Made by a program: the position numbers and the translations under genes. The notes beneath the pieces were generated by a model that saw only the letters and a list, made by a program, of their open reading frames with translations, had not been told where the DNA came from and ran no database searches. Below are positions 26,772 to 29,046 of a stretch of 64,000 nucleotides of DNA, in pieces (position 1 is the first letter of the stretch; every line of letters starts with the position of its first letter). Where the stretch lies: the NCBI GenBank assembly GCA_036271555.1, contig DATBAK010000004.1, forward strand, positions 1 to 64,000. The letters are read 5' to 3'. Source of the stretch: Acidimicrobiia bacterium (lineage in GTDB: Bacteria > Actinomycetota > Acidimicrobiia > IMCC26256 > PALSA-610).

Positions 26772-26820
26772 GTTTGGTTGGCCGTCAATACCGCTGAGAG
26801 GTACTGAAGGCCAACGAAAC
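26772..26820. repeat. Imperfect 21-bp inverted repeat
   Basis: Arms 26772-26792 and 26800-26820 pair at 18 of 21 positions around the loop GCTGAGA. The element abuts the broken end of the HNH remnant. A related but less symmetrical sequence sharing GTTGGC, CAAT and GGTACTGAAGGC lies at about 1454-1497. Confidence 0.55.
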
Positions 26821-26831
26821 CACGAACCTCG

Positions 26832-26960
26832 CCCGGCGAAGGCGTTGACATGGTTCGTGCCACCGCGACTGAGCGGCACGACGTGGTCGATCGTGAGCTG
26901 CCGCTTCTTGACGCCGAACTCGACGCCGCGGTACCAGCATCGGTCTCCGTCGCGCTCGCG
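26832..26960 (-). pseudogene. HNH endonuclease remnant
   Basis: On the minus strand a short frame reads DRCWYRGVEFGVKKRQLTID followed by HVVPLSRGGTN and then N. This is the central DHxxPLSxGGxxxxxN signature of small HNH nucleases (phage/IS607-neighbour type). The second Cys of the usual CxYCG is Arg, and after N-A-F-A-G the sequence runs into an inverted repeat without the expected CxxCNxxKG end. It is a truncated relic in the 358-bp gap before the sigma factor gene. Confidence 0.6.
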
Positions 26961-27091
26961 CGGCCGGGCCACCGCCAGCGTGCCGGGCGCCACCCCGAAA
27001 GCCCCCGCTCTTGGCCGAAGTCTGGCAAGAGGATGAGACAGCGACTCGCGACATCGCAACGGATCGGTGGCGCCGGGCGTCTCAGACGGTG

Positions 27092-27586
27092 ATGGAGCAT
27101 GTGGCGGTGACCGTCGAGGCTGACGTCCCCGAGCCGCGGCCCGAGCGGGCGGGCTTCGACGACTTCTGCCGGGACGCGTACGCGCCCATGGTGCGGATGG
27201 CGTTCCTGCTCACGTCGTCGATCGAGACCGCCGAGGACCTCGTGCAGGACGTCTTCGCGCGCGCCTACCCGCGCTGGTCGACGATCAGCGAGCCTTCCGC
27301 GTACGTGCGGCGCGCGGTCGTCAACGCGTGCCACTCGCATCATCGACGGCGGTTTCGTGAGCGCGCACACCGGCCGAGCACACCCGACGCGATCGAGCTC
27401 GAAGCCGACGAGCTGTTCGACGTGCTCGCCACGCTCCCCGCGCGGATGCGCAGCGCGATCGTGCTCCGGTACTACCAGGACCTCGCCGAGAACGACATCG
27501 CCGAGATCCTCGGTTGCGCGCCCGGCACCGCGCGCTCACTCATCCACCGCGGCCTCGCGCGTCTCAGGACGGTGATGGAACCATGA
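27092..27586 (+). CDS. SigE-family extracytoplasmic-function-like sigma factor
   Basis: This 164-residue sigma-70 factor has region 2 at about 20-90 (FDDFCRDAYAPMVRMAFLLT, then AEDLVQDVFARAY) and region 4 at about 108-160 (LPARMRSAIVLRYYQDLAEN, then IAEILGCAPGTARSLIHRGL). It would direct RNA polymerase to a small regulon. The start ATG 27092 is tentative because no clear ribosome binding site is seen; GTG 27089 and GTG 27101 are alternatives. Its stop overlaps the start of a membrane-anchored serpin (ATGA), the position where an anti-sigma factor is normally encoded. Confidence 0.9.
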   Translation: MEHVAVTVEADVPEPRPERAGFDDFCRDAYAPMVRMAFLLTSSIETAEDLVQDVFARAYPRWSTISEPSAYVRRAVVNACHSHHRRRFRERAHRPSTPDAIELEADELFDVLATLPARMRSAIVLRYYQDLAENDIAEILGCAPGTARSLIHRGLARLRTVMEP

Positions 27587-29046
27587 ACGATTCCGAAGAC
27601 AAGCTCCGCACCGCATTGTCGGCGCGCGCCGCGAGCGTGCGCGTCGACGATCCCGCGCCGAAGGTGCGGCACCGCATCGTCGTGCGCCGGCGCCGGCGCC
27701 GGCAGCGACTCGCGTTCGGTGGCGCCGCGCTCGCGTTGGTCGTCGCCGTGGGAGTGCTGGTGCCGATCGTGAACAACGACGGCCATCACGCCTCGACGCC
27801 TGCAGCCGCGCCGCGCGGCAAGGCGGCGTCGCCCGGCGTCCTGCGCTCACAACTCGTGCGCGACACGCGACCCGCGGTGCCGGCGAGCGCGGTCAAGCAG
27901 CTCACGACCGCGAGCGCGCAGACCGCGCTCGACCTGTACCAACAGCTCGCGAAGACGCCGGGCAACGTCTTCTTCTCGCCGTACAGCATCGAGACCGCGC
28001 TGGGCATGGCCGCCGCGGGCGCGCGCGGCCAGACGCTCGATCAGATGCTCGCGGTGCTGCACAACCGGCTCTCGCCGGCGCAGTTCCAGGACGCGACGAA
28101 CGCGCTGAACCTCTCGCTGCTCGGGCCGCGCACTCTGCCGGGCGAGTCGGCGTCGGGTCAGCCGTTGCGGCTCGAGATCGCGAACTCGGAATGGGGTCAG
28201 TCGGGCTACCCGATCCTGAAGTCGTTCCTCGACCAACTCGCGCGCAACTACGGCGCCGGCCTGAACACCGAGGACTTCGCGGGCCACAACGATGCCGCGC
28301 TCGCGGCGATCAACAGCTGGGTCGACGCGCACACGCACGGCAAGATCAAGCAACTGCTCGACTCACTCGACCCGGCGACCAAGCTCGTGCTCGTGAACGC
28401 GGTGTATTTCAAGGCAAGTTGGGCGCTTCCGTTCGTCGCGAGCCTGACGAAGACCGGATCGTTCACCACCACGAGCGGCGGTACCGTGAGTGCTTCCTTC
28501 ATGAACGGAGAGCCGGATGGCTCGTACGCCTCCGGGCCCGGATGGCGGGCCGCCGAAATTCCGTACCTCGGGGGCGCGTCGATGACGATCGTGATGCCCG
28601 ACGCGGGATCCTTCTCGGCCTTCGACCGATCGTTCGATGCGTCGATCCTGACGAAGGTCATCGACGGTCTCCAGCCGTTGACGCTGCAACTCGCGCTCCC
28701 GAAGTTCCGGATGACAGATCGGGCCGCGCTCCACGACGCCCTGACAGCGCTGGGCATGACCGACGCGTTCAACGGTACGGACGCCGATTTCTCGGGAATC
28801 ACGAACCCGTCGAAGCTGCATATCTCGGAGGTCGTGCACCAGGCGACGATCACGGTCGACGAGAAGGGCACCGAGGCCGCGGCGGCAACCGCGATCGGCT
28901 TCCAGGCAACGTCTCGGAGAGTAGGACCGACGGTCACCTTCAAGGCCGACCACCCGTTCCTCTACTTCATCCGCGACACGAAGACCGGGACGATCCTCTT
29001 CATGGGCCGCGTCACCGACCCGACGCAGACCTCGACGCAGCAGTAG
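27583..29046 (+). CDS. Membrane-anchored serpin with anti-sigma-like cytoplasmic N-terminus
   Basis: This 487-residue protein has a short charged N-terminus (1-43, ending in a run of Arg), one transmembrane helix (about 44-64), a linker, and a complete serpin domain outside the membrane (about 100-483). Serpin hallmarks are NVFFSPYSIETALGMAAAGA, NAVYFKASWALPF and the inhibitory hinge EKGTEAAAATA (427-437), followed by HPFLYFIRD. Counting from the hinge puts the scissile bond at T443-S444, a small-residue site suited to elastase- or subtilisin-like proteases. Translational coupling to the sigma factor suggests it acts as its membrane regulator; this role is inference. Confidence 0.9.
   Translation: MNDSEDKLRTALSARAASVRVDDPAPKVRHRIVVRRRRRRQRLAFGGAALALVVAVGVLVPIVNNDGHHASTPAAAPRGKAASPGVLRSQLVRDTRPAVPASAVKQLTTASAQTALDLYQQLAKTPGNVFFSPYSIETALGMAAAGARGQTLDQMLAVLHNRLSPAQFQDATNALNLSLLGPRTLPGESASGQPLRLEIANSEWGQSGYPILKSFLDQLARNYGAGLNTEDFAGHNDAALAAINSWVDAHTHGKIKQLLDSLDPATKLVLVNAVYFKASWALPFVASLTKTGSFTTTSGGTVSASFMNGEPDGSYASGPGWRAAEIPYLGGASMTIVMPDAGSFSAFDRSFDASILTKVIDGLQPLTLQLALPKFRMTDRAALHDALTALGMTDAFNGTDADFSGITNPSKLHISEVVHQATITVDEKGTEAAAATAIGFQATSRRVGPTVTFKADHPFLYFIRDTKTGTILFMGRVTDPTQTSTQQ

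Follow-up and report, generated by a model that had tools for sequence, protein, structure and literature searches.

A SigE-type sigma gene overlaps the gene of a membrane-tethered serpin

The window analyzed here is the whole stretch of 64,000 nucleotides from an Acidimicrobiia genome. On its forward strand, the gene of an ECF-type sigma factor is coupled to a downstream gene whose product carries a serpin domain (Table 1). The initial annotation had described a SigE-like sigma gene sharing four bases with the serpin gene, and its coordinates proved to be right, with both frames meeting in an ATGA junction. Assignment of the sigma factor to TIGR02983 is marginal (142.6 bits, for a cut-off of 141.55), and Pfam sigma regions 2 and 4 were both detected above cut-off. 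Control by an anti-sigma factor is not universal among SigE-family sigma factors; the sigma factor of that name in Streptomyces, for instance, answers to a two-component system.

Table 1. Features of the sigma-serpin locus (positions in the window).
Feature	Position	Strand	Basis
SigE-family (TIGR02983) ECF-type sigma factor, 164 aa	27092..27586	+	TIGR02983 142.6 bits; Sigma70_r2 and r4_2; start ATG 27092, stop TGA 27586
ATGA stop/start overlap of the sigma and serpin genes	27583..27586	+	sequence; -4 overlap also in 43/70 SigE partner genes
Membrane-tethered serpin, 487 aa, putative anti-sigma factor/sensor	27583..29046	+	translation; PF00079 350 bits; start ATG 27583, stop TAG 29046
Residues 1-43, cytoplasmic segment, LRTAL motif and Arg-rich tract, putative sigma-binding end	27583..27711	+	layout common to other SigE-type partners
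Residues 44-64, single transmembrane helix, N-in (positive-inside rule)	27712..27774	+	hydropathy
Residues 65-109, extracellular linker, possible site-1 cleavage region (role inferred)	27775..27909	+	mostly low pLDDT
Residues 110-480, complete serpin domain	27910..29022	+	PF00079 positions 2-370; Foldseek top matches all serpins
Residues 427-435, inhibitory hinge EKGTEAAAA (P17-P9)	28861..28887	+	consensus in PMC8233489
T443-S444, predicted P1-P1' scissile bond	28909..28914	+	gap-free loop alignment, chloropin Arg-Ser

The serpin protein had been described as having a short, basic end in the cytoplasm, a single membrane helix and a complete serpin outside. We found the same layout, with a cytoplasmic end of 43 residues that finishes in an Arg-rich tract, a helix at about 44-64 and a full-length PF00079 domain. 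The helix directly follows R35-R42 and no basic residues stand immediately past it, which indicates an N-in orientation. A gene directly downstream of, and coupled to, a sigma gene, together with an N-in product spanning the membrane once, corresponds to the layout of a membrane-bound anti-sigma factor. Pfam and NCBIfam searches of the protein, residues 1-43 included, gave no match to a known anti-sigma domain. Membership of the class I anti-sigma factors (ASDI, zinc or non-zinc) was rejected, as it requires a recognisable domain of at least 50 aa and the 43 cytoplasmic residues match none. The ASDI classification keeps anti-sigma segments shorter than 50 aa apart, as potential class II factors (PMC7406223), and residues 1-43 are possibly a short segment of this class II type. 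The AlphaFold model has no confident prediction for residues 1-85 and is therefore uninformative on sigma binding.

Other features were observed around the sigma gene. Positions 27069-27104, at the sigma start, closely repeat positions 27551-27588, at the sigma 3' end and serpin start (GGCGCCGGGCGTCTCAG-ACGGTGATGGAGC-ATG compared with GGCCTCGCGCGTCTCAGGACGGTGATGGAACCATG); this repeat may have been left behind when sigma/partner cassettes recombined. A small open frame on the reverse strand lies 5' of the sigma gene (26785-27054). It resembles an HNH nuclease by eye (CWYRG...IDHVVPLSRGGTNH) and had no Pfam match. An ECF-like promoter, GAAC-N15-CGTT at 26824-26846, was discarded, as this pattern occurs at chance level (9 found for 7.45 expected).

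The serpin domain looks inhibitory

The PF00079 match spans positions 2-370 of 370 with 350 bits, which places the domain in the serpin superfamily (MEROPS I4). In the AlphaFold model, the serpin core reaches a pLDDT of about 90 and the loop 433-447 is flexible and un-inserted. The top 50 Foldseek matches of the predicted fold were serpins only, and its TM-score with chloropin (8GXV), also the closest sequence match in the PDB, is 0.90 by target. Chloropin is secreted with a signal peptide and forms covalent complexes with proteases; its P1-P1' bond is Arg-Ser, with P1 determined by mass spectrometry (PMC10090351). An intact hinge and a scissile bond at T443-S444 had been predicted in the initial annotation, and both predictions held. 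Residues E427 to A435 (P17-P9) fit ExGTEAAAA, the published hinge consensus of inhibitory serpins (PMC8233489), and the loop aligns without gaps to the Arg-Ser bond of chloropin. Judged by its sequence, the serpin of the window looks inhibitory. No second serpin was found in this genome.

SigE-type sigma factors of the family are commonly paired with membrane proteins

We then considered the position that the serpin protein occupies. In the genome of the window, 51 stretches match TIGR02983 at E up to 0.001, seven of them above the cut-off. At least 17 SigE-type sigma genes of this genome overlap a downstream partner gene, usually by 4-11 bases, and each of these partners has a cytoplasmic end that is short and basic, followed by a single helix and an outer part of its own. 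A pool of 70 partners was assembled from several genomes of the family, including one row (L171) from a pair of another class. The partner gene starts at -4 relative to the sigma stop in 43 of the 70 and at -8 in 15. The cytoplasmic end has a median length of 43 residues, with seven basic residues ahead of the helix, and an LRxxL-type motif is present in 29/70, compared with 5.5 in shuffles. Outer parts differ wherever Pfam recognises them (BNR-type propeller, DUF4232 and others), and most are unrecognised. The initial annotation had put the serpin protein in the slot of a membrane-bound sigma regulator, and this placement is strengthened by the recurrence, dozens of times and with other outer domains, of the same N-terminal layout and position. 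The slot is thus that of a modular family of sigma factors and membrane regulators, in which the serpin protein is one member with its own outer domain plugged in.

Dozens of SigE partners were collected (L111-L140 and L207-L266), and most outer domains had no Pfam match among the 16 non-serpin ones scanned. These outer domains may be a reservoir of bacterial sensors that have yet to be described.

The sigma-serpin pair recurs in the phylum

Serpins were searched for in the class (395 genomes), the order (58), the family (14) and the phylum (396), and the upstream DNA was read for most matches. Conservation of the pair had been proposed as a check, and the pair indeed turned up in three of the family's genera, with a single further case in a different class. 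The three further coupled pairs are those of genomes G084 (L008), G020 (L013) and G507 (L171). The first two belong to other genera of the same family; they have TAATG and TGATG junctions and an Arg-rich cytoplasmic end followed by a helix, and their sigma factors score about 121 bits with TIGR02983, below the cut-off. G507 belongs to another class of the phylum, and its sigma and serpin genes overlap by 11 bases. Among 17 serpin loci from other phyla, none was sigma-linked.

A survey set of 133 non-redundant serpins of the phylum with enough upstream DNA was compiled. A lipobox was detected in 112 of them, none of which is sigma-linked. All four sigma-linked serpins (4/133) lack a lipobox, whereas it is present in 112/129 of the others (Fisher p 5e-4, to be read as a guide only as the rows are related). 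The lipobox test is a simple pattern that misses some lipoproteins, so this contrast is if anything understated. Serpins lacking the helix and unlinked to a sigma gene had been named in the initial annotation as a finding that would speak against the proposal. They do occur, in the form of the 112 free lipoproteins, but do not amount to a refutation, because serpins of the phylum ordinarily occur as free lipoproteins and a helix and a cytoplasmic end are present in each of the four that are sigma-linked. The small residues of the hinge are also kept in all four, with the P17 glutamate missing in G507. The predicted P1 residue varies (T, T, D and C), as expected if each sigma-linked serpin targets a different protease.

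Other arrangements were seen during this survey. In L192, a sigma gene adjoins a serpin gene; it was rejected as a pair since the serpin is a lipoprotein starting downstream of the sigma stop. In L165 (G580) and L168 (G535), an ECF sigma gene lies slightly more than 100 bases downstream of a lipoprotein serpin gene on the same strand, an order unlike that of the window's pair. A conserved island (CAACC ... GGTCGCG(CG)CCTGTAGACC) was noticed 5' of both serpin-linked sigma genes in L106 and L107, from different genera, and is possibly a shared promoter.

The pairing arose more than once

The phylogeny of the sigma factors placed that of the window in a clade of seven rows (support 100/91) with sigma factors of G166, G084, G020 and G111. 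Other partners in this clade have non-serpin outer domains without Pfam matches, and none of the orthologues of the window's sigma factor in the other family genomes examined carries a serpin partner. The serpin-linked sigma factors of G084 and G020, 68% identical to each other and 32-34% identical to that of the window, fall elsewhere in the SigE tree. Grouping all three was rejected (AU p 0.037), which disfavours a single ancestral sigma-serpin pair for the family. Support for one clade of the serpin domains from the window, G084 and G020 is 93/82, which is not decisive, and these domains may form one clade. Because the sigma factors fall apart in the SigE tree while the serpins may be one clade, the serpin would within the family either have moved between sigma/partner modules or have been gained twice.

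The sigma factor of G507 is far from the SigE-type set, and its serpin clusters with serpins of its own class. The cytoplasmic end of the G507 serpin protein carries the motif IEIPAH. The partners encoded with a paralogue of its sigma factor and with related sigma factors show the variants VEVPSH and IDVPTH and have other outer domains. The G507 pair is an independent assembly. Among the loci of this second sigma group (L171 and L267-L270; G507, G566 and G703), the partners begin with [IV]E[IV]P[AS]H, or in one case IDVPTH, and this motif is a candidate for sigma binding. A serpin was therefore attached to a sigma partner on at least two occasions, perhaps on three, and because the same pairing arose at least twice, the combination appears to be useful.

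Proposed mechanism and alternative explanations

Serpins with such a hinge trap proteases covalently and refold irreversibly, and membrane anti-sigma factors often release their sigma factor through site-1 and then site-2 proteolysis. Reasoning by analogy, we lean towards a membrane anti-sigma factor in which the serpin is inhibitor and sensor of an extracellular protease, and which frees the sigma factor by proteolysis of its linker and helix. The basic cytoplasmic end would hold the sigma factor at the membrane, and the serpin would act as a bait. An extracellular serine (or cysteine) protease would cut near T443-S444 and be trapped covalently while the serpin refolds. Either the refolding or the bound protease would alter the exposure of linker 65-109, a site-1 protease would then cut this linker and an M50 site-2 protease the helix. 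Once freed, the sigma factor would activate genes for defence against proteases, its own operon probably among them. Inhibitor and one-shot receptor would be combined in a single protein, much as inhibitor and receptor of lysozyme are in RsiV. The genome encodes one M50 peptidase as a site-2 candidate (152 bits); this is a weak argument, as almost every genome encodes such a protease. It is plausible, rather than probable, that the pair is a covalent suicide-inhibition switch, in which a single capture of a protease and an irreversible refolding free the sigma factor, and which was assembled independently in at least two lineages from pre-existing modules.

The serpin could instead be an effector only, that is, a membrane-anchored shield against proteases under the control of its own sigma factor, with a cytoplasmic end that may bind sigma and a serpin that carries no signal. 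Where serpins of the phylum stand alone, they are mostly lipoproteins of the cell surface, which are shields of this kind, and the retained hinge suggests that inhibition itself is under selection. We nevertheless regard this explanation as rather unlikely. In dozens of paralogous partners, the place of the serpin is taken by diverse outer domains, which is what inputs should look like; the cytoplasmic end common to sigma partners would be superfluous in a shield; and the genome with the G507 pair also encodes a lipoprotein serpin (L152). It is improbable that the partner is a positive regulator or a membrane anchor needed for sigma activity. No known anti-sigma domain was detected in it, and RskA is reported to behave both as activator and inhibitor (PMC7509140), but the operon order, the overlap and the topology are those usual for membrane anti-sigma factors, and the shortness of its cytoplasmic end is met by the possible class II factors mentioned above (PMC7406223).

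Serpins are metastable, and a cue other than a protease, such as unfolding, heat or a ligand, might trigger the stressed-to-relaxed change. This is very improbable, as the sigma-linked serpins have kept their inhibitory hinge and their P1 varies as it does in serpins that target proteases. Chance neighbours or a non-functional gene fusion are hardly credible. Only four pairs were found among 133 serpins and these genomes have many sigma genes, but the pairing recurs independently, with matching architecture, intact reading frames and an intact hinge. This recurrence largely refutes such an explanation and, with the common architecture, led us to reject chance adjacency.

Comparison with known systems

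The initial annotation knew of no described sigma-serpin switch, and our search of the open literature found none. The pair is of a known kind, namely a sigma factor and a membrane regulator with an exchangeable outer domain, for which we found no description of a serpin as input domain. It is one of at least 17 pairs of a TIGR02983 sigma factor and an overlapping membrane partner in its genome, and differs from the others examined by its serpin, as those have other or unrecognised outer domains. Clostridial RsgI proteins similarly combine one regulator module with many exchangeable outer sensor domains, but they work with the SigI sigma family, have another regulator domain and sense carbohydrates or polysaccharides (PMC12203970, PMC4711584). 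The window's protein shares its serpin fold and hinge with chloropin (8GXV), miropin and tengpin, none of which is described as joined to a sigma factor, chloropin being secreted (PMC10090351).

Little is known about the physiological role of serpins in bacteria. Action as the input of a sigma regulator would give them a concrete one, the sensing and disarming of foreign proteases at the cell surface. The pair also points to the large and little-studied set of SigE-type partners as a modular sensor collection with exchangeable outer domains. The closest parallel is RsiV-SigV of Bacillus subtilis and Clostridioides difficile, where a single protein, RsiV, acts as anti-sigma factor and also binds lysozyme as its receptor and inhibitor (PMC5014341). 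Both partners have a cytoplasmic end, one helix and an outer domain, which in RsiV binds and inhibits the enzyme that is sensed and in the window's protein is predicted to do so. Membership of the RsiV-type lysozyme receptors was rejected, as the outer domain is a serpin only, and the likeness is kept as one of working principle. RsiV has no serpin and binds lysozyme non-covalently, and its anti-sigma function is established, while that of the window's protein is inferred; the latter would trap its protease covalently and irreversibly. If this holds, the sigma-serpin pair would be a one-shot, covalently triggered receptor, close in principle to RsiV and lysozyme but irreversible.
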